Notes under the pieces: generated by a model
Database searches by the model: none
Seen by the model: the letters and a program-made list of their open reading frames with translations, nothing else
Told to the model about the DNA's origin: nothing
NCBI GenBank assembly: GCA_004369045.1
Contig: ML213503.1
Coordinates: 3,276,083 to 3,321,135, forward strand
Reading direction: 5' to 3'
From: Heliocybe sulcata
Lineage: Eukaryota; Basidiomycota; Agaricomycetes; Gloeophyllales; Gloeophyllaceae
DNA: 45,053 nt
Position numbers and translations under genes: made by a program
Shown here: piece by piece, positions 1 to 43,799 of the stretch
How positions within the stretch are numbered: the first letter of the stretch is position 1
Layout: every line of letters begins with the position of its first letter

Positions 1-1838
1 GATATGATGGGGTACCCATTTGCTTTGCAATGGGTCGAGTTTCTGTCGTCCGAGAAGGGTATCCAGACGGGCAAGGTGAGTAAGGTGGAGAGCAATCCGG
101 ATCAGTCGAAGCATCTCGAGACCGGCAAGACGAAGGTCTTTGATATCGAGCTCGAGTTTGTGAATCTGAGAAGCGAAGAGTACACGGGGGATAGTCGGAT
201 ACCGACCAAAATCGTGAGTGGTGTCTCCGGAAGTCTCCAGCAGGCATTCACGCTGCGGTGGTTCAAGAGGTTCGGAACGCCGCTGGAGGATGCGCTCCGG
301 AGAGATCTTACCGTCAACTCTCTCTTCTACAACGTCCACACGCGCAAAGTCGAGGACCACACAGGCAAAGTACGTTCAAATGTTCACTCTGGTTTCCCAC
401 ACAGCATGGATGACCGTCTAGGGGCTGCAAGACTTGAAGGATGGCATCGTCCGCACACCTCTCCCTCCAAGAACGACGTTCCTGGACGACCCTCTCCGCG
501 TCATCCGGTCCGTCCGTTTTGCGAGTCGCTTCGGGTACGACATGGTCTCCGAGTTGCAAGATGCGGCGCGGGACCCCGAGATTCAGGTTTGTCCATGCAC
601 GCTGCTACCCAGCGTTGTCAGGCGCGGACTGACAGAAGGATATTTGGCTGATATACAAAGTCTGCTATCGTCTCTAAAATAAGCCGCGAACGCGTGGGGG
701 AAGAGCTTGACAAGATGATGAAGGGTGCGCCACCATGTGGATAGCGGCGCTCTTGCTTTTATTGACTATACTCAGGCCGCGATCCTCTCTACGCGATCCA
801 GCTCATCGACAGCCTATCCCTGCACAACGCCATATTCTGCATCCCGCCCTCCATCACCCCCACATTCTCCCAACAGCCCTCCCACCCCTCCAGCTCCCTC
901 GCCGCAGCATCCATCCTCCGCACCCTCCTCTCCCCCTTACCCTCCCCCCTCCCTCCCTTACACCCCCTCTTCACCTCCATCACTTACGACACCTCAACGA
1001 CAGCGCGGCTGTACCTCGCCTGCGCGCTGACGCCCTTCCGCGGGCTCACCTACACGGACGCGAAAGGCAAGCCCCACCCCGTCGTCGAGGCCGCCATCCG
1101 GGAGTGCCTGAAGCTCGGCGCGCAGAACCATTATCTGGACGGGATACCCGCGCTGTTCGCGGCGGCTGCGGTGCTGAGGCACCCCGTGTTTGGTGGGCCG
1201 TTGCAGAGGGTGGCTATTGGTGAGCAGCCTGCGACGGGTGTATGGGAAGAGGCTGACGGGTATGGATGTAGGGCTGGTGTTGAGGGATAAGTGTGTGCAT
1301 AATGTGAATACGGGCGCGCATTGGGTGACGTCGACGCTGTTCGCGTTGGTCCAGGAACTGGCGTCGATATGGGATCCCGAGACGGATTCTCTGGACGGTA
1401 CGTGGCTCCCGTGCTTTGGCAGCACGCTCTAACATTCCCCAGTCGAACGAGGTGCTCGGCTGGTCACCACGTACAACGACTTCATGGCGAAGATCGACGA
1501 GCTCGATCTGACGTCTGCAGCGGATATGAAGCCTGTCCTGACGGTAGGCGCGCCCTTTGTTTTCTGGAGTCCGCTGCTCACCGCATGCGCAGGGCCGAGA
1601 CGTCGTCGCCGAGCTGGGCGCGAAACCCGGGCCGTGGACGGGGCACGCCCTCGCGCGCGTCGTGGAATGGCAGCTCGCGCACCCGGCGGGCACGAAGGCC
1701 GAGTGCGCTGCGTGGTTGAAGGCTGAGCACGGCGCGGGTAGGATTGGGGTCGGCGACGCCCACGCGGGTGGTCCGACGGCTGGCAAGAGGCGGGAGGGGG
1801 GCGGGGAGAAGGCGAAGCGGGAGGGTGGGATTGCATGA
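1..1838 (+). CDS. CCA1: CCA-adding tRNA nucleotidyltransferase (3' part, 5' end outside the window)
   Basis: Adds the 3' CCA end to tRNAs in nucleus, cytosol and mitochondria. The reading frame is open from the left edge and carries hallmarks of class II poly(A) polymerase/CCA enzymes: SKHLETGKTKVFDIELEFVN (nucleotidyltransferase core), GTPLEDALRRDLTVNSLFYN, DDPLRVIRSVRFASRFGY (the template-like arginine region) and the C-terminal helical part with HPAGTKAECAAWLK. Introns inferred at 214-267, 370-421, 587-660 (approximate end), 725-775, 1220-1271, 1398-1442 and 1544-1592. The first intron is 54 nt and free of stops, so its retention would insert 18 residues. The stop is TGA at 1836-1838 after a Lys/Arg/Gly-rich tail. 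The N-terminus with the catalytic Asp pair lies upstream of the window. The gene converges on the HMG-box gene with a 140 bp gap. Family identity is very secure; the exact exon after 587 is less so. Confidence 0.93.
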
Positions 1839-1978
1839 GGAGCGTAGTTCTACATGAAAGTACACTCTAGGGTTGTACAGCATATGGAGACGAGAAGGCG
1901 GGCATAGGGGATACATCGGGACAGCGTGTGCTATATTGAGATAAATGACGAATACAGATGGAATGATACGGACCAGGC

Positions 1979-3169
1979 CTACGCGTCTCGCGGGTACTCG
2001 AAATACGCCTGCATCTCCGCCTCCAGGGCCTTGTCCAGCTCGCCAAAGGGGTACGCGGTTGTGAAAATGTCCGCGTCCATGGGCGGGTAGTGCACCCCGA
2101 GCTTGGCCCACGTGTCCTGCAGCGGGTCGGCGTATTGCTGGTCGTAGTCGAAGGTGGTGGGGGCCGGCCCCCAGTGCGGGGAGAGGTAGACGTCGCCGGC
2201 GGGGGCGTGTGCGACGGGGTAGGCGCGGGTGTCTAGCAGGCCGGCTGAGGCGTACATCTGGGAGGGGGTCAGTGGGGGAAGGGGGGGAGAAGGGGGCACG
2301 TACGCGGGGCGCGAAGCCGGGGATGGAGAGGTCGAGCGCGGGGATGTCTTGCGTGGGGACGAAGACGGGTGTGGGCGGGGACGGGGGCGAGGGCGCGAAG
2401 GTCAGGTCGGGGGTGTGCGGGGACTCGGGCTTGACCGGGGCGGGCGGGCTAGGGGCGTACGCGACGAACCGGGTCGGGGTGGGCGCGGGCTTGCGGCGGG
2501 TGCGGGGCTTCCGGGCGGACTTTGTCGGGACGCGAGGCTGCACCTCGTCCTCCCTGAGCCGGCGCTCGAGCGCGTCGCCCTGTATGCCCTGCAGAACGAG
2601 CGCGGCCATCCTGGCGCACCTTGCCTGGTCCTCCGCGCCGTCCCTGCTGACCTTCCGCTTCGCGGCCCTGGGCTTGGCGCCGGCGGGGGCGTACTTGTAG
2701 TTGGGATGGAGGAAGGCGTGCTGGGCCTTGACCTCGCGGGCGCGGGCGAGGAAGGGGGCGCGGTCGGCGGGGGGCATGCTGTTCCAGACGTGGCCGGCGA
2801 TGCGGCTGATGTGGCGGTGGTCGCGCTCGACGGTGGAGGTGACGATTTGGGTGGCGCAGAAGTGGGAGCGGAAGATCATGAAGGCGTTGGAGGGGCGGGG
2901 GATGTGGCCGGGCTTGCGCTTGCGGGCGTGCGAGCCGGGCGGGAGGATTGGGGCGGGGGAGGAGCGGTAGGAGCTGGCGGGGGAGGCATCTGTGGGCGAC
3001 GGCGCTTGGTATTCACCCAAGTCTAGGGTTTCGACCTCCCATTCACCGTAGGCTGCGGGGACCAGTAAGAACGTCGGGGACCCACACGCGCAAATAAACA
3101 ATACTCACCGCTGAGAGGGGACTGGTTCGTCAAGCGGCGGGATCGTCTGACAGGGCGGAGAGCGGGCAT
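1979..3169 (-). CDS. HMG-box DNA-binding protein, probable transcription factor
   Basis: Exons 3109-3169, 2304-3052 and 1979-2257 give 362 aa. One HMG box lies near residues 55-130: IPRPSNAFMIFRSHF, then the HISRIAGHVWNSM helix and EVKAQHAFLHPNYKYAP, the layout of MATA/SOX-type single boxes in fungal regulators. After the box comes a basic stretch (AKPRAAKRK, KSARKPRTRRKPAP), then a Pro/Ser-rich linker and an acidic, aromatic C-terminus ending in EAEMQAYFEYPRDA. Start chosen at 3169 because only this frame joins across the 3053-3108 intron to the AYGEWEVETLDLGEY segment; starting at the downstream ATG would begin inside the intron. Such proteins act in mating, pheromone response or general development in basidiomycetes. 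The sequence does not show which, and no homeodomain or pheromone-receptor genes lie nearby to suggest a mating locus. Confidence 0.85.
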
Positions 3170-19300: not shown

Positions 19301-22300
19301 TCAAGTGAGCTAGGTGGTTGGACGGGTCCCGCACAGAATACTGAGAAAGAAAATTAACAGGTTGGCGGTGAATAACGACTGGCTAATGGAAGAGGCCTGG
19401 GCTCTGTACCTGGTTCGTACACCATCTGCCGTGCATATACTCGTCAGTCTCACCAATTTCGCACTACAGGAAGGCAGTCATTATGTGCGCTGCGGAGTGG
19501 AAGGTCTTGGTGGTGAATTGCAGCGACGCGGCATATCACGCCACTCCCAGTGGGGCGCACAGGGCGTCGTGTAAGCAGCAGCGGGGTTCATGATGGTAGA
19601 TCTTGTACTGACCTAACAATCCTCCAGCAACTATCTATCCTCGACGGTCGGAACCAAGATCAGCGCTCCGCCGAAACGCAATGTGTTCACCGCCGACGTC
19701 GCAGTACAGACTGACAACATCATGATTGGGTACAACAATCAGGCGGCAGTGTCCATTTACGAGCCCATTAAGGAGGATCCGTCAGAAGACGATGATATGA
19801 CGACGTTGTCAGCGTCTGACTTGGCATCTATCCTCAAGTGGAGTAAAGAGATATCCAGCGACATCAACTTGACCGCAGGTACGCCTTGGAGATGCGACTA
19901 CAAGACATGCTTACTTATCCCACATAGCTCTGCAACGCCTGACAGAAATCGCAACCGGTGAGCTGTCTGTATGTCATGTAAGGTTTTACTAAGCATTTAT
20001 TTGCAGATGCCTCGGGCGCGCAGACGGCCTGCGTTGTGATAGCACGGGAAGCCGGTGATTATACCGTGGCCACGAGCATGGTGCCACCAGGTCGTTGCCA
20101 AGTATACGAGTAAGCCCCTCAGTCTGAAACAACGGGATGACAATTAACTATCCCACAGGAATCCAAAGCCGATCCGCAATATTACCGATCCGCTCCAGAA
20201 AGCTATAACTCAACAAGGTATTTCTCTTGCCCGCTTGAAGTGGTAGCCGCTCAGTATATATCCCTGCACAGCTCTCAATGCTAAGGAAAATATATATTAC
20301 GACGATATCACAGTGGACTCCCGCTATACGTCTGAGGCGGAGGAGAGCCCTCACAAATCCGTAATCTGCATACCTATTTTCAGCAATCGAGGTCAAACCT
20401 TTGGGGCCGTGTACCTTGCTTCCAAGTACACGTTCTCGCGGAATACCTTCACGATGTTAACCCTGCTGTGCCAGCAGGCAAGCATCAGCATTGCGAACGC
20501 CTTACTGTTCCGCTCTGTGCAGGCAGGCACCCGGGAGAACTTGAAAATGATCGCAGCGCAAAGAGATGCTTTGGAGGCTGCCCGAAAGAGCAGGGAAGAT
20601 GCTTTGAAAGCCACCAAGGTATGTGCGGCTTCTGTTGGACACCGCGCAAACTCAATCTTTGTGCCATATAGATCAAGAGCAATTTCTTGGCTTCCATGAG
20701 CCATGAGCTCCGTACCCCTTTCAGGTCTGTGGCCACATTGGATGTGATCGATAGTCGAAGCTCACAGGCGTTGTCTAGTTCATTCTATGGTCTTCTAGAC
20801 ATCCTGAGTGGAACTGAGCTCAACGCAGGACAGCGAGAGATAGGTACGTGTCATAGAAAGCCGGCTGGGTTCTGCACTGTCTCACCTGCTTATCTTAGTG
20901 CAAACCGCTAAGCAATCCTGTGAATTATTGCTCAAGGTGAGGGGTAACTTGTCCGCGTGTGTGTATAAAATAATTGATATGTATTCGACCAGATTATCGA
21001 CTCCATTCTCGACTATAGCAAGCTGGAAGCTTCCGGTATGAGTGAAGCTCTCAGAGTGGTCCTCCATGCTGACGATATGTACAGCCGTGAAATTAGAATA
21101 CACCGGATTCCTAGTCGAGGACATCATCGCCGTAAGATCTGCCTAACTGTGGCTATATGCTGGTTAAATCTCGATGCAGGACTGCATGGAGTTGCTCCTA
21201 CCGATGGCTGCGAAGAAACTGGATCTATCATTCAATATTGAACCGGATGTTCCCGAATGTAAGTGCACGAGCTTCCGGTGGGCTCATGTTCCTGATCCGA
21301 CTTATACTTAGCTGTTGTGGCGGACTACGCACGCATCCGTCAAGGTATGTCATTCCTTTCCTCGTCGATGCAGATACCGTTCCGACGCCTTCGTAGTATT
21401 GATGAATCTGATCGGGAATGCGGTGAAATTCACGTCTACTGGGTCTGTCAAGGTTGTTTGCTCCGTGGATCGCACCGTCGTCCCTCCACCAGGCGAAGTG
21501 CAGCTAAAATTTGTCATTCAGTATGTGTTGGTCTTCTGCCGTACAGCTAGTCTTATTCACTCCGCGATAGAGATACTGGTATCGGGCTGTCCTCCAGCGA
21601 TGTCGACCTTCTCTTTGTACCCTTCCAGCAAGCTGACAATTCTTCCACTCGCCGATTCGGTGGAACAGGCCTCGGTTTATCAATCTCGCGAGGCTTGGTG
21701 AAGCTCATGGGTGGAGCCATAGGGGTCCAATCTGAATTAGGTGTTGGTTCTATATTCTGGTTCACCGTTCCTGTTAAGCTCTTCGAGTCTCCTGAATCGC
21801 GGAAGGTAACGAATACTGCAACCTGTTCACATCATGAGCTTGAGCTTACATTCGTTTGCCCCAAGGTGCTTTCCGAAATCGATCACCTTCGAAGTCAGCT
21901 TGTGAAGCCCAGGACGCTTCGCGTGCTACTCAGTTCTCCCTCGGACATCACTCTAATCCTTCTAAGCAATATGCTGGACGGGTTTGAGATTGCCACGTCG
22001 TCATCCCTTTCTGAGACTGAGGCCTATATACGAAACGAACAGAGTCAAACCAGGCCCCTGGACTTCGTCATACTCGATGACCAATCGGAGTCGCACGCGG
22101 ACGAGCTGGCACGCCTTATAGAGTCGCTGCAATATTCCAGTCTAAAGGAGACCAAAGTGGTACACTTGTATACCCCCACGACGGACTCCTTAACCGGCCA
22201 CACCATCTTCAGCAGCAACATCCCTGGTGTCGTGAGGATGACTAAGCCCCCAAGGAGGGCACGACTTCTGCAAACCCTAGCAGGCCTGAAGAATCTTCTA

Positions 22301-23073
22301 GGCTCGACAGGTGGTCAAAACCAACTGTCAGCGGCGAGTGCAGCAGAGGATGCTGCATTGGCCAAACGGACTCTGTACGGAAATGTCCTGATCGCCGAAG
22401 GTACGTTGCACTGGGTTTACATACCATGCTACGTCCGAAGGACTTATTTTTTTTTTTCCAGATAATCCGGTTGCACAGAAACTTCTGGTTAAGCAATTGG
22501 AGCGATATGATCTGAAAGTAACTCCAACAAGCAACGGTGAACAAGCCATCAGCGGTACGATCCTTACGCTTTCGGTATCCGCTGGAGCTGATATTCTTCC
22601 GAGCAGAATGGGAAGCACATGAGCCTGGTTATTTCAGTGTGGCCCTCTTTGATCATCGTACGTGTTCTCTGAACTTGTGCATATCAAGGTCCTGATTGGT
22701 ATTGGTAGACATGCCTGTTTGTGATGGTGTTGAAGCTGCGAAGCGACTACGACTGCTTGAGAGTAAGCGTAGAGTCGCAACGATCCTGCCCAGTAAGAAA
22801 TCCGGCCTTGACACCCTTACTGCCATCGATTAATTGTTTACCGTATAGTCGTGGCTTTGAGCGCTGATTGTCAAGAATCCACGAAGCAGTTATGCCTGAG
22901 TGCTGGCATGAATTTGTTCTTGAGCAAACCACTCAGAAAAGGTGCGTCGCCTTGTTCCATTATTTCTTGCTTTCAGGCTGAATGGTGGTTACTCAGGTGA
23001 TCTTATGTCTCTCATATCGACTTTTGGGGGTCCACAGCCGCTGGCCGACATGCAAGAGGCTCCCATCCCATAA
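13398..23073 (+). CDS. Group X hybrid histidine kinase (kinase-like domain, AAA-type ATPase, GAF, HisKA, HATPase, receiver)
   Basis: Cytoplasmic two-component sensor of the fungal CHK1/Mak2-Mak3 class, which feeds a phosphorelay in oxidative stress, cell-cycle and morphology control. Roughly 2,300 aa by estimate, in about 52 exons. Order: start [15 protein letters not shown]; kinase-like domain 13.5-14.8 kb with [11 protein letters not shown] in place of HRD and no DFG; ATPase with Walker [11 protein letters not shown] (15411-15440) and Walker [14 protein letters not shown] (about 15898); a long helical region; GAF (about 19.9-20.5 kb); H box [10 protein letters not shown] (His codon 20702-20704); N box [18 protein letters not shown] and FGGTGLGLS; receiver NVLIAEDNPVAQ with phospho-acceptor Asp at 22651-22653, then VALSAD and FLSKPL. 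All residues for autokinase and receiver function are present. Stop TAA at 23071-23073. Individual exon edges in 16.9-19.7 kb are less secure, and a further 5' exon cannot be excluded. Confidence 0.9.
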
Positions 23074-23616: not shown

Positions 23617-26600
23617 CTATCGACCATTCCACGGGCTTGGATCAACCCAGTGCGTCGGAGCTTGCGCGACAACCCTCCCACTCCCGATCGATGGTAGGGG
23701 CGGCACGAGCCCACGTGAATTGGATCGTCCATGCCCATCACGAGACGCGAGCGATCCGGTTCGGGACATCGACGGCGCTTGTCCTCGGGAAACGCTGCAT
23801 GTATGTTCCACGTCAGCGACAAATTTACGAGCGGTGTACTACTGCAGGACTGACCTTGAGCCGGGCTGGAGCACAGCAGGGACACCTGCCATAGGTGGTG
23901 CCCAGCTACTGATCCTTTCAGGCCTCTGATCTTTAAGTGTAGGTTCCGAAGATTTGAGTCTATCCCTAGTGCGGCCACAACAACGCCGCTTGATACCTGT
24001 GTGATTATGAGCATTGGTACACTCACCAGCAGGATCGAGAGTCATACACAGCAGCGTCAGGCCTACCACGAACACAAACAAAATCCCACCGGCTACTGAC
24101 ACGGGGACAGCAATTGTGAGATTCTTCTTATACCATGCCTACAGAAGGAATAAGATCAGGATGAGGACAGCGACTGACTTCGCCTCGTACAATTGCCGTC
24201 GCTATGATAGGTCCTGCGTGACATGTGCCTTCCATGCATGTGCCGGCATAACCTAAAGAGCGCTCAGTTGGAGGCCATACCCCGCGGGAACAGGAGCTTA
24301 CCACATGGCGAACCGTCAACAAGTTGAGTCTGCAGGGTAATACATTGGCTTGCCGATGTAGGATCTTGGCAAGAAACCAGGCAGGTTTTGTCGTTTGTGG
24401 CCGGACATGCTTCCTGTAAGTTCATGGACGCCCCTAACTGCTGGCATTGCTCTGTCAGAATTGTCAGTCCCGAGGCAGCCTGGAATGAATTAGGGTACGA
24501 CATACGATTTAGAGACGTGCACTGCCCGCTAGCGCATGCCAATCCACTGCCACAACTCTTGCCTAAGATACAATGAGCATCACGACAATCACGAGGTCCG
24601 TGGAGGAGAACTTGCCATTCGGTGCAAAAACGTCCTCAGGGCACGTGGCGTTGTTGCCCGTGCAAACCTCAGCCGTATCACAAGTCGCATCCTTCGCAGG
24701 CCGGCAAACTTGCGTCGACGGAGCATATTGGCACGAATCCGTGCAGCACTGGCTATTGGTTGGATCGCAGACCGACCCAGAGGTGAACTTGCATGTGGTC
24801 GGGTTGCAGCAAGTCGAGTTCACGCCAGGTCCTGGATCGCAATCTTCTCCAGCCTCGACTATTCCGTTCCCGCACATTTGCAGAGAGATGATTTTCTGCG
24901 ATGGGCTCGGGGCCACCAGACAGGACGTATTCGTCTGCCACCCGGTATTTCCTTGCATCAAGGAACCTAAAAAAGGTACCGCTCACGCTTAGCAACATCA
25001 ACGACAATAACAGAGCACCGGATCTTACAAATATTGCCAAGTGAACAAGGGGAGAATGTGGTCTCTGAAGCGGCAGTTGTTGGGTTCATAACGAATTTCC
25101 CACTGGCGTCGCACTGGTTGGCGGAAAATGGACAGCAGTTGCTAGTTGAGTTGCATCCACTGGTACACTGATCCCTTATGAGGACAAGGACGACGATATC
25201 CGAGATTCTTGAGAGGACTCACATCATGCTGTAATAAAACATAAGCACGACGCCGAGCAAAGCACTGTGAATACTTACGAGGGCACCAAAATTATGTCCA
25301 ATCTCGTGCGAGACGACTTGCCATTCCGTGCGGCCAGCAGTAGACACCGCCGTGCCCGAAACAATGCTTGGAGCATTACCAGATGCTTGCTGCTGGCATC
25401 TGCATACCGTCAAAATGAATCATGTATATCCTAGGAATGCGCTTAAACCGAGGTGGACGTATGACTCACAGTGTTGTTAGCCAAGCAATACCCACTTCGC
25501 TTCCGGTAGGACACCCGCTCATCAGATGCCAGAGTCCTACTCCGTCGTTCGGCCTGTTCCCTCTCCATTGCGAAAAGACAGAGAGTCGATCATTCAACGT
25601 GAGGTTGCCCGGGCCTGTACAATCAACGTTCCAAGGATTGGCTGGATCGGCAACAGTTGGACACCTTCATCAGGATATGGGGTTAGCTAAACACCAGGCC
25701 TTCTGCACAGAATGGCAAGTCAAGCTTACGTCGCGTTGTGCACCTGCAGTTCTACTATTCCGAGACTAACGTTGAAGGTCGTCTGGAAGAAGCGGTCAAT
25801 GCATCGTCGGTGTTTCAGTTACGATATTGATCACCTTATACAACGAGCTGGCCATGTTCCAGTTGTTTAAGATCTGGGTGGTCGCATTCGACGTCGTCCC
25901 GTACATAGCCGTGTAAGCGCAATCGGCTGCGACGCCCATATAAAGCTGGACGGAGTGAGAGGAGTGCACTATACAGACTTGGACTCGGCACATACCACTT
26001 TTTGACTCTGCGGACAACCTGCGTTCTGCCCGATATTATTGATGAAACTAAGAACCTTTAAGTATCTTGCGAACAGCACTGAGAGGAGAGGTGCCTAGCT
26101 CACTTGGTGGTAGTTGTACCGCCGGCGACGTCGTCTCGCTTGGATAGAGCAAATGGATTGAACACGCCTAATGGATCATACCAAGGGCTAGTATCATCCT
26201 GTCGCAGACTAGGGTTGAGACGAGGATCCGTGTTGTATGGTAGTGAATCATGTCCACATGTCCGAGGTGGCGGCGGTAGTTCGGACTCCTCGATAACAAC
26301 ACCTGTGCGTAGGACGTGCTCTTCCAGGTGGGTCATCTCGTCGGAATCGCGGAAGACGACAAGCGGAGAGTCGGGCTCGTCCTGAAGAGCGGTGATAGGC
26401 GAGTCGAATTCGTGCTTGTGGCGGAGATAGTTATCCTTGGTCATGATGTGGTGTATCTGGCCTTGCACGGAGAAAGCGCCTTCGTAGACCGGCGGCGTGC
26501 CCTTCTTGATGTCACCCTGATCGTGGACAATGATACGCGCCCATCCGAGGGTGCGTTGCTGGGACGGACGAGGCAAGGCGCCAGCAGCATCCTCTCTCAT

Positions 26601-27076
26601 GCGCGAAGGGGACTCTTCCTCCGGGACAACCTCTCCCCAGTAGACCTTGACAGCTTCCCGGAGCAAGGGCTCGGTATGGTCGAGGACAGTACGGCCGTCA
26701 GTAGTCGTATGGTAGTAGTTCACCCTGGCTGCAGGGTGGATGAGGTGGTCATTGGGCCGGAGGTGGAGGTGGTAAGTGTGGTCAAAGGCAGAGAGAGTGA
26801 GGCGGAATGTGTCGGAGTGGCGGAGGATGGGAGAGCGGGAGGTGGTGGAACGGGGCTCGTGGGCATTCGGTCGACGGGGAAGGATCTCGAGAGCGAGAGT
26901 GGAAGGGTTGGTGATCCTCTTCAACGGTCGTGCTGGACCAAAAGACGCTAGACAGACATGTGAAGCTCAGCTGGCTGAGACACGTCGCATCATAAGCCGG
27001 ACATACCTGAAACGGCGACAGCATAAATTATGAATACAACGACCAGCGTATGAATTGCATGACCGGGAAAGAGCAT
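23617..27076 (-). CDS. ADAM-family (disintegrin and metalloprotease) membrane zinc protease
   Basis: Type I membrane zinc endopeptidase of the reprolysin (M12B) class; fungal members are known but their substrates are mostly not. Fifteen exons sum to 2673 nt (890 aa): 27007-27076, 26104-26947, 25996-26047, 25835-25945, 25730-25782, 25470-25664, 25279-25399, 25223-25228, 25029-25167, 24616-24966, 24506-24562, 24302-24451, 24191-24252, 23855-24138, 23617-23794. Order: signal peptide (MLFPGHAIHTLVVVFIIYAV), long prodomain with a basic site SKRDD before the catalytic domain, HEIGHNFGALHD, cysteine-rich disintegrin domain (MCGNGIVEAGEDCDPG, CCTDSC, CRPAKDATCDTAEVC), cysteine-rich region, a TM helix (VAGGILFVFVVGLTLL), basic CCGRTR and a Ser/Pro/Arg-rich tail ending WVDPSPWNGR. 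The HD of the zinc motif comes from a 6 nt exon. The intron 24563-24615 uses a GC donor. Confidence 0.92.
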
Positions 27077-35341: not shown

Positions 35342-36313
35342 CTATAGCGGCCGAAACACCGGAGTTTTAGTGAGCTTGTATATACTGCTCTGTTCAGCAT
35401 CGTAGGCGTCGTCCCAGCCGAGTATCTTCTGCTCAAGAGGATAGCAGCCAGTGATCAAGGGTATGTGTTTGAACCAACTTTTCGGTACAGCATCCCTATA
35501 GGCAGCACTCATCGTCCCGATGTATTCGTACCAGGCGGGATAGAAACCTGACATGCCCCAGTCCACGAGCCACAATCTCCCATCTTCCCCAACGACGATA
35601 TTGCGTGCGGTCAGATCGCAGTGCGTGAGAACAAGGTCTTCCGTAGGATTGAACAATCCTAGACCTCTTTTCCCGCATATGCTGTTGAGCTCGTCGCAGA
35701 ACTCTGCCCAGGTGTTGTATGGACCCGTGAACCTGTCACCGAATACCCACAATGGTGTACCGAACTTCTGCAGGGAATCACTCATGGGACCCGGGACTGT
35801 ACACCGCTCATACGCCGTGGACGCAACGCGTAGCTGGCGAATATAAGTGCGCAAGGTCCAAGCCACAATGAATCTTTGCCAGGATGTCATGGACAGCCAT
35901 AGCCGGGCCAAGGGTCTCCCCTTGATGTATTCCATGAGGACATAGGTTCTTCCAGTTTCGCTGGTCAAAACTCGCCGCACTTGGGGCACGGGGATCGATG
36001 TATGTGCACGCACAAATCTGAGTGCGTTCACTTCCGGAAGAATCCAGGGGGCTAAGCCTGCAGCTTTGCAAACAGTGTCGTCGCTGAGGATGCGGACCCT
36101 TCCAGGCCGCCCGAATATATCAGGGCAGTCTGGGTGTGGCGTCGCATTTCTGTACCGTTCTATAATCTCTTCATCCGACCAACTGTCAGTTACGGATACC
36201 TTCTCAACGTCAATGAAAGGCCTTCCTGGAGCCCCATCTGCACGCACCGTGCTGATGCCATTTCCATCTTTAGGCTTCGACTGGTTCAGAACTTCGTCCA
36301 GAAGGTCGGTCAT
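35342..36313 (-). CDS. APH-like small-molecule kinase (aminoglycoside phosphotransferase fold), copy A
   Basis: Single-exon 323 aa protein with the APH/choline-kinase fold common in large families in Agaricomycetes; natural substrates are unknown. It begins MTDLLDEVLNQSKPKDGNG. Visible parts: VRILSDDTVCKA (the ATP-binding strand), PEVNALRFVRAHTSIPVPQV, YVLMEYIKGRPLARLW hinge, the catalytic loop LTHCDLTARNIVV (Asp and Asn kept, Cys in the HxD middle position) and the metal-binding LVDWGMSGFYPAWYEY in place of DFG. The end is EQKILGWDDAY...FRPL. Being intronless is notable among intron-rich neighbours. A copy with about three-quarters or more identical residues by eye lies at 42918-43799. Antibiotic resistance should not be inferred. 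Confidence 0.88.
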   Translation of the reverse strand: MTDLLDEVLNQSKPKDGNGISTVRADGAPGRPFIDVEKVSVTDSWSDEEIIERYRNATPHPDCPDIFGRPGRVRILSDDTVCKAAGLAPWILPEVNALRFVRAHTSIPVPQVRRVLTSETGRTYVLMEYIKGRPLARLWLSMTSWQRFIVAWTLRTYIRQLRVASTAYERCTVPGPMSDSLQKFGTPLWVFGDRFTGPYNTWAEFCDELNSICGKRGLGLFNPTEDLVLTHCDLTARNIVVGEDGRLWLVDWGMSGFYPAWYEYIGTMSAAYRDAVPKSWFKHIPLITGCYPLEQKILGWDDAYDAEQSSIYKLTKTPVFRPL

Positions 36314-37911
36314 TGTGGCGAGGAGCGTGCGTTACGACGCTGTCCTAATCTTTTGGGAGAGGCAATAAGATGTAAACGGGAAGGTTTACACTGATTAGCA
36401 CGAGAAAATACTGGCCGTTTACACAGGATCTCCAGTTCCAATTGCGATCGGGAAAAGCCGGTCCCATCAAGCCCCGTGAAAACAAGCATCTCGGGTCATC
36501 CATGTTGCTCAGGAAGTCTTTGACAGGTCAGAATCTCCTTCAAAACTAATTGTTATACTATAAGTGCTGGAACATTCATGTCTTATAGTGTCCTTATCGC
36601 ACCTCATCAGGCTCTCCCGTCCACGGACCAGTTTCCTTTCCTCACTCAACTTGAAAGTCAACATTCCAGTACACTACTCTAGAACGGTGTCCATTGAAGT
36701 TAAGTTTGATAGCTTCCGCCACTCCCTAATCGCTTTTGGCGTAATGTGCTGTAGCAGGCTAACCCTCGTTGCTAGCAATAGAGCCGCCGGAGCGATAGTA
36801 TTTCTACCCGGGCGCGGGCCTATTCGGAAAGACCGCCGTCTCCTTGAAAGGACCCAACTGATGCTTGCAAGTATAGCTCGGCACCGTTTTGAAACCGATG
36901 TGATTTTCCTCGACAGTATCCGGGACTGCGACCAATCGGCGAAGGCCTAACTACGTTGAGCATCGCAATGTCTCCTGAAACATGCGTAATCTGGCTGTGG
37001 CAGACCAATGGCGAAAGTAGAGCTGGCCACCGGATTCCCAACTGTTTCTCCAGGGCTCCCTTTATCTACTCCACGTCCTCTTCGTGATGCAGGGTCGTGA
37101 TTCGTATTTCTTCAAACATCAGACGAGTTCGCCATCGCTCCGTCATGAACGTGTCTGCTCATGTCTTCCGCGCGCCTCCCGGATGACGATCCGAAGTAGG
37201 CGCGTAGTACGCGACGCAGGAATAATGATCTCGCCGGAAGAGAGCCGTAACAGCGCCAATCCGAGAGGAGGCTGGTCACCCGCTTCTATCAGATGCTTTA
37301 GGCAGTCAGGCGGACCGCGAGCCTCGAGGACGGTCGTCAGGACTGCATTTGCTTATCCAGGACTCGTTGCCGAAGCTGACTGATGCTAATATCAACTCGC
37401 TTGAGTTCACCGATACGACCGAGCCGTTTGCTGAGGACGTACAGTGAGGGACGTGTTCCCCAGCGACGAGGGTACTTAGCGTCAACGTTGACGGCGAGCG
37501 CTGGGTTGCCACAAGAGTCGGGAACGCCACCGGCCGGCAAGGGACCGGCACATCCGGAGCATGCCTTATGTAAGAGAGTCCCAAAGAGTTTTGCAGGCCA
37601 CCAAAGCCCGACCGCCTCCTTTGAACCGTCCGCTTCCCACTGCCCTCGTCAGTTTCTGTGCTGTTCTTTCAGCTCCCAGCGAATTTCTAAGGCTCCAGGC
37701 GAGGGGGTCTTTTGACCCGTTTGCCTCCTCGCTCGCCGCGCTCTCCGACTCGTTCTACACCGCATAACGTGTCTGCCGTCATGATATCCCTACTATAAAC
37801 ACGACCACGCAGCTCCACCTAGTTCACGACTACGCACATATACCTGTACCAGCAACTGTTACAAAGCATTTCGAATCTTCCGCTAATTCGTCCTCAAAAC
37901 CACTCAACACC
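36314..37911. other. Gene-poor stretch, 1.6 kb
   Basis: Lies between the divergent APH-like kinase copy A and HAL4-type kinase. Open frames at 36564-36950, 37084-37383, 37306-37584 and 37383-37767 overlap each other in several frames with no domain and no convincing splice pattern. Segment 37340-37520 can be read as SLPKLTDANINSLEFTDTTE and on through a possible splice to VNVDGERWVATRVGN, which looks protein-like but stops soon after. This may be a decayed gene. A TATAAAC at 37794-37800 could serve the HAL4-type gene. Confidence 0.45.
37794..37800 (+). promoter_or_regulatory. Candidate TATA box of the HAL4-type kinase gene
   Basis: TATAAAC about 112 bp upstream of the ATG at 37912. Motif match only. 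Confidence 0.35.
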
Positions 37912-42917: not shown

Positions 42918-43799
42918 CTACAGCGGCCGAAACGCCGGAGGTTCGGCCAGCTCGTACGTACGTCCCCGCTCGACGATATCACGTGGGTTTCCCCAGCCCA
43001 GTATCTTCTGCTCAACAGGATAATAGCCAGTAAACAAAGGTGTGTGTTTGAACCAGCTTTTCGGAGCAGCATCTCTAAACGCGGCACTCATTGTCGCGAT
43101 GTATTCAAACCAGGGTGGATAGAAGCCCGACATCCCCCAGTCCACGAGCCACAATCTCCCATCTTCTCCGACGACGATATTGCGTGCGGTCAGATCTCCG
43201 TGTGTGAGAACGAGGTCTTCCGTCGGATTGAACAATCCTAGACCCCGTTTCCCGTATCTCCTGTTGAGCTCGTCGCAGAATTCTGCCCAGGTGTTGTATG
43301 GACCCTTGAACCTGTCGCCGAACATCCACAACGGTGTAAAGAACCCTTGTGGAGAATCACCCATGGGACCCGGGACGGTACGCCGCTCATACGCCGCTGA
43401 CGCGACGCGTAGCTGGCGAATATAACTGCGCAAGGTCCAAGCCACAATAAATCTTTGCCAGAGTGTCATGCACAGCCATAGCCGGGCCAAGGGCCTGCCC
43501 TTGATATATTCCATGAGGAACCGGCTTCTAGTTGGACCAGTCAGGACTCGCCGCACTTGGGGCACGGGGATCGATGTGTGTGCGCGCACAAATTCGAGTG
43601 CATTCACTTCTGCGAGGATCAAGGAAGCTGAGCCTGAAGCTTTGCAAACAGTGTCGTCGCTGAGGATGCGCACACTTCCAGGGTACCCGAATATGTCAGG
43701 GCAATCTGGGTGTGGCGCGGCATTGTCGTACCGTTCTATAATCTCTTCGTCCGACCAATCGTCGGTCACGGATACCTTCTCCAGGTCAGTACGACACAT
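42918..43799 (-). CDS. APH-like small-molecule kinase, copy B, with disrupted N-terminus
   Basis: 293 aa open frame matching copy A from KVSVTDDWSDEEIIERY to the shared end FRPL. Catalytic loop LTHGDLTARNIVV keeps the usual HGD form, and LVDWGMSGFYPPWFEY is intact. The original start codon region is still visible at 43893 (MADLLDEVLDRLKPKDPND) but a net one-base length change before 43800 puts it out of frame, ending in a TGA after NVSY. The usable start is then the internal ATG at 43797-43799 (MCRTDLEKVSV), which would drop about 35 residues that lie before the ATP-binding core. It may be a functional shortened enzyme or a young pseudogene. A TATA-like box at 43930-43937 sits at normal distance from the old start. 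Confidence 0.75.
   Translation of the reverse strand: MCRTDLEKVSVTDDWSDEEIIERYDNAAPHPDCPDIFGYPGSVRILSDDTVCKASGSASLILAEVNALEFVRAHTSIPVPQVRRVLTGPTRSRFLMEYIKGRPLARLWLCMTLWQRFIVAWTLRSYIRQLRVASAAYERRTVPGPMGDSPQGFFTPLWMFGDRFKGPYNTWAEFCDELNRRYGKRGLGLFNPTEDLVLTHGDLTARNIVVGEDGRLWLVDWGMSGFYPPWFEYIATMSAAFRDAAPKSWFKHTPLFTGYYPVEQKILGWGNPRDIVERGRTYELAEPPAFRPL

Follow-up and report, generated by a model that had tools for sequence, protein, structure and literature searches.

Is the zinc site of the ADAM-type protease of Heliocybe sulcata completed by an exon of only six nucleotides, and, if so, does inclusion of that exon turn the enzyme on and off? The question arises on contig ML213503.1, within a window of 45,053 nucleotides (the whole stretch of DNA that was analysed), where the original prediction placed CATGAT, the codons for His-Asp, as a separate exon in the middle of the zinc motif. 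The features concerned are as follows.

23617 to 27076, minus strand: ADAM-type (M12B) metalloprotease-disintegrin gene; spliced model of 16 coding exons and 880 aa
25279 to 25399, minus strand: exon 7, ending in ...SHEIGHNFGAL
25229 to 25278, minus strand: intron 7, 50 nt, phase 0, GTAAGT..TTATTACAG; branch-like CTTAT with its A at -14
25223 to 25228, minus strand: exon 8, a 6-nt microexon; CATGAT for His-Asp, the third zinc ligand
25168 to 25222, minus strand: intron 8, 55 nt, phase 0, GTGAGT..GGATCAG (GGGATCAG); branch-like CTCAT with its A at -12; the weakest acceptor of the gene
25029 to 25167, minus strand: exon 9, beginning CTSGCNSTSNCC; holds FVMNP with the conserved Met

The 880-aa model matched the Pfam families Reprolysin_5 (E 6.3e-43), Disintegrin (3.1e-16) and Pep_M12B_propep (1.3e-6), the propeptide and disintegrin domains (PF01562 and PF00200) scoring above the cut-off, and inspection of the translation by eye showed a start resembling a signal peptide and a hydrophobic segment, VSVAGGILFVFVVGLTLL. 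A propeptide, a reprolysin domain with HExxHxxGxxHD, and a disintegrin domain are shared with the ADAM/M12B reprolysins of known structure (ADAM10, 8esv and 6be6; ADAM33, 1r54); unlike these solved animal ADAMs, the H. sulcata protein is a distant fungal member (best E 1e-5) with its zinc site split over exons 7 and 8. The HEIGH of exon 7 presumably supplies the first two zinc-binding His and the catalytic Glu, and the Met of FVMNP, which corresponds to M507 of P0002 and does not vary among 21 aligned relatives, is taken by us to be the Met-turn after the zinc site. The nearest solved structures are those of ADAM10, and the HEVGHNFGSPHD of its chains aligns with HEIGHNFGALHD of the H. sulcata ADAM, in agreement with the assignment of the third zinc ligand to the 6-nt exon. 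An AlphaFold2 model of the Heterobasidion relative P0008, built on a 30-row alignment (mean pLDDT, 61.9; residues 152-236, including His-Asp, below 50), was too poor to show the zinc site. The whole genome was searched by protein family and by protein sequence, with scoring of the best candidates only; both searches found this one ADAM locus and no second, and a second locus was rejected as an alternative.

The coordinates and lengths originally proposed for this region were all correct on the minus-strand sequence. Exon 7 ends at 25279 after HEIGHNFGAL, exon 9 starts at 25167 with TGT ACC AGT GGA TGC (CTSGC), and CATGAT lies at 25228-25223 between introns of 50 and 55 nt, both in phase 0, with a canonical acceptor and donor on its two sides (TTATTACAG-CATGAT-GTGAGT). 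The zinc site HEIGHNFGALHDC (HExxHxxGxxHD) is complete only with the 6-nt exon in place, and skipping of the exon keeps the frame and removes the third zinc ligand, as had been predicted. The two outcomes would be told apart by the junction sequences, GGTGCCCTCCATGATTGTACC for inclusion and GGTGCCCTCTGTACC for skipping.

The possibility raised with the prediction, that a different splice path supplies HD, was examined by enumerating GT/GC-AG paths from the HEIGH codons on, with a minimum intron length of 25 nt; these came to 148 with one intron and 1467 with two, 1615 altogether. HEIGHxxGxxH appeared in 40 paths, all via the same first intron, and a single one of these 40 continued into HDCTSGCNSTSNCC, so that one path remains with HExxHxxGxxHD followed by CTSGC. 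A chance match as the source of the CATGAT exon was rejected by shuffles and by genome pattern counts. When the 111-nt stretch was shuffled 200000 times with its dinucleotides preserved, AG-CAYGAY-GT occurred in 101 shuffles and AG-CAYGAY-GTRAGT in one; in the 31.6-Mb genome the latter pattern gave four matches on both strands, including the exon 8 site, while the backwards control gave one.

The best database match to the ADAM model was P0001, the public model of the gene itself (Heliocybe sulcata OE88DRAFT_1709856), which is identical to the 16-exon model save in three places: it lacks HD, exon 8 being skipped; exon 11 and the preceding GC-AG donor are modelled differently; and the donor of intron 13 lies 12 nt later. 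The omission of exon 8 makes the enzyme look dead. Since P0001 differs at two other places as well, and since the relatives P0002 and P0003 agree at exon 11 with the 16-exon model and not with P0001, the latter looks like an uncorrected prediction. Two details of the gene model may be added here. The GC-AG intron, 24615-24563 on the minus strand (GCAAGT..TCTTAG), is absent from the public model, together with the loss of the next 57-nt exon. A candidate 30-nt intron, 24026-23997 on the minus strand (GTGAGT..ACACAG), is spliced in the public model; it would be very short if real, but its sequence also reads through in frame (ECTNAHNHTG), which makes it uncertain.

Relatives were collected by three protein searches, of which the second and third used an HD-less query chosen so that skipped forms rank high. 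The best 120 of 1136 matches of the first search, the best 120 of 217 of the second, and all 92 of the third gave 176 distinct proteins, 141 from annotated records and 35 from contigs only (lgn, jgi). All 35 contig-derived relatives among the matches listed carry HExGHxxGAxHDC. The closest of them, P0002 (89% identical over residues 330-680 and 77% overall), has HD. In 24 of the 35, all with HD, the contig exceeds the coding sequence by 700 nt or less; because the introns of the H. sulcata gene sum to about 817 nt, these 24 contigs probably represent spliced mRNA, with less certainty for partial proteins.

Among the 141 annotated relatives in the matches listed, 118 have HDC (including P0158, HEIGHGFGAIHDC), two have HD with an insert, 16 lack exactly HD, and five are otherwise odd. 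The 21 that lack HD at the zinc site (the 16 exact and the five odd ones) are without exception gene models from annotated genomes in databases. Six species with skip models represent as many orders, Gloeophyllales, Gomphales, Geastrales, Hysterangiales, Russulales and Agaricales; H. sulcata itself belongs to Gloeophyllales within the Agaricomycetes. Five genera include both an exact-skip model and congeners that carry HD: Psilocybe cyanescens lacks HD and P. cubensis has it; Amanita muscaria lacks it, unlike four other Amanita; one Termitomyces lacks it and two others have it; Mycena latifolia lacks it and both Mycena compared have it; two Russula lack it and R. compacta has it. The pair of P0054, from a contig of 3092 nt, and P0097, an Armillaria luteobubalina model, is 91% identical with the same flanking residues, and HD is found in P0054 only; it offers a convenient second test case.

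The nature of the omission is informative about the underlying genes. CAYGAY neither starts with GT nor ends with AG, and therefore a one-site shift of a single intron cannot drop it; both introns are needed. An omission of HD alone thus requires an exon skip between two introns, so that the 16 genes should share this 6-nt exon, barring a true loss of HD. True loss in these species is unlikely because congeners keep HD, and was rejected on that ground; the exon in these species is a deduction from proteins. Two kinds of model may hold relics of such introns: GAI-VS, in P0096, P0104 and P0173, looks like the translated GTRAGT donor of intron 7, and HD-V, in P0058 and P0113 (one from Polyporales), looks like the donor of intron 8.

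The contrast between the annotated and the contig-derived sets is weak in statistical terms. By two-sided Fisher tests it gave 0.34 for exact skips in the first search and 0.076 in the first plus second, and 0.062 and 0.026, respectively, for aberrant forms, the second set being enriched for skips by design. The relatives are representatives of 90% clusters, and with this clustering and the restriction to the best 120 of 1136 and the best 120 of 217 matches, skipped isoforms could be missed. A scan of viral contigs for fungal ADAM relatives, seeded by peptides of the disintegrin part only, gave 47 pattern matches and no relative; the same scan of bacterial and archaeal contigs gave 224 pattern matches and 17 loci, all prokaryote-titled and matching downstream of the zinc site.

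Splice signals were scored with a leave-one-out matrix made from the 15 introns of this one gene. The donor of intron 7 scored 9.2 (second best of 15) and that of intron 8 scored 8.4 (fifth). The acceptor of intron 7 was middling at 4.0, and that of intron 8, at -1.6, was the lowest of the 15; among minus-strand AGs of the window, 1.4% scored as well as the former and 20% as well as the latter. Both introns contain the branch-like YTNAY, a loose pattern that is missing from 2 of the 15 introns. Skipping of exon 8 would create an intron of 111 nt ending in the weakest acceptor, while the longest other intron of the gene is 70 nt. By these scores the signals favour inclusion over skipping, and the weak acceptor could slow the removal of intron 8.

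Fungal introns of 50-55 nt are of a size recognized across the intron (intron definition). Because introns 7 and 8 are both this short and come with separate donors and branch-like sequences, each may be recognized in this way, and no exon definition would be needed. A report on plant microexons states that the two splice sites of so small an exon cannot both be occupied by the splicing machinery simultaneously (PMC8831610). Six bases being too few for two splice complexes at once, removal of the two introns is probably sequential: intron 7 would leave first, CATGAT would then lie within a long exon of the usual kind, and the removal of intron 8 could follow normally.

These observations altogether make it very probable that exon 8, a 6-nt microexon, is constitutively included and gives His-Asp to the HExxHxxGxxHD zinc site of the only ADAM locus found. 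Direct observation covers the anatomy, the single splice path, HD in the contig-derived relatives and the gap in the public model, whereas we infer constitutive inclusion in H. sulcata, the order of splicing just described and the presence of this exon in the 16 skip species. The best reading is that exon 8 would be widely conserved and missed by gene finders.

The original prediction went further and regarded inclusion as an on/off switch for activity. In its fullest form, inclusion and skipping would depend on conditions, yielding either an active protease or a form without the zinc site that keeps the disintegrin part. This is very unlikely, even though a skip of exon 8 is frame-neutral, the weak acceptor could delay removal of intron 8, the public model P0001 is itself the skipped form, and a microexon switch has been described for Xlr2 of Trichoderma virens (PMC11121469). 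The switch found no support among the relatives, since none of the 35 contig-derived ones in the matches listed is skipped; the skipped forms are all annotated models and stand among congeners with HD, and P0001, contradicted by P0002 and P0003 at exon 11, differs elsewhere too. The signals also speak against it, the acceptor adjoining exon 8 being stronger than the one that skipping must use, which is the very weak acceptor of intron 8. A scheme in which exon 8 is kept in place across Agaricomycetes and sometimes skipped, so that a membrane-bound dead ADAM would serve as a decoy or dominant negative, is decidedly unlikely. That the only ADAM product of H. sulcata is catalytically dead for want of HD, CATGAT being a leftover that no transcript includes, is highly improbable: HD is absent from the public models of both H. 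sulcata and Neolentinus lepideus, but the splice sites around CATGAT are intact, HD is present in P0002, the closest contig-derived relative among the matches listed, and the two genome searches, with best candidates scored, gave no second ADAM locus. Barely credible is the supply of HD by another splice path, for instance with intron 8 retained, which likewise yields HEIGHNFGALHD, because 39 of the 40 third-His paths lose the conserved CTSGC continuation, the products with intron 7, intron 8 or both retained all run into a stop within the stretch translated, and the candidate was rejected with no other enumerated path continuing into CTSGC.

A constitutive exon 8 fits a kind of exon that is already in print. 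In plants, microexons of 1-15 nt are reported to be missed by annotation, with pervasive misannotation of the small ones (PMC8831610). Exon 8 resembles the plant microexons described there as a very short, apparently conserved internal exon that is often missed or mis-modelled, and differs from them in being fungal, in having introns of 50-55 nt on both sides, and in falling on a metal ligand. Small exons of the same size class are reported from fungi: the shortest exon of Phanerochaete P450 genes is 6 bp (PMC1184071), exons of Cryptococcus go down to 1 bp (PMC3990503), and CYP621A of Fusarium has an exon of 1 nt (PMC12940212). In CYP621A, as here, a conserved motif is split by two introns and was missed by automatic models; the Phanerochaete, Cryptococcus and Fusarium exons belong to other gene families and, in the passages considered, carry no protease metal ligand. 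For Xlr2, two isoforms at different glucose levels are reported (PMC11121469); exon 8 is like it a fungal microexon whose presence alters the capability of the protein, but the skipped form of the H. sulcata ADAM is known from annotation only. Given the fungal exons of 6 bp, 1 bp and 1 nt, the Trichoderma switch and the plant misannotation, exons so small are already known, and what is new here is the catalytically decisive site. Among the best matches considered in the open-licence literature, no published microexon in a fungal ADAM was found.

The ADAM models from 16 mushroom-forming species probably have a zinc site that is broken on paper only, and motif-based sorting of active and inactive proteases would misfile these 16. 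A 6-nt exon required for the predicted activity, apparently class-wide, provides a clean natural test of intron definition and of gene finders; if skipping were ever regulated, it would be an activity switch of two residues.

Other features were noted in the same window. Beside the ADAM gene, 21551-22833 on the plus strand encodes a histidine-kinase ATPase domain (PF02518, E 1.2e-15) followed by a stretch that by eye is response-regulator-like, and is perhaps a hybrid histidine kinase. Among the open frames 35348-36331, 42924-43799 and 1584-3104, all on the minus strand, two match the phosphotransferase family APH (PF01636) and one an HMG box.
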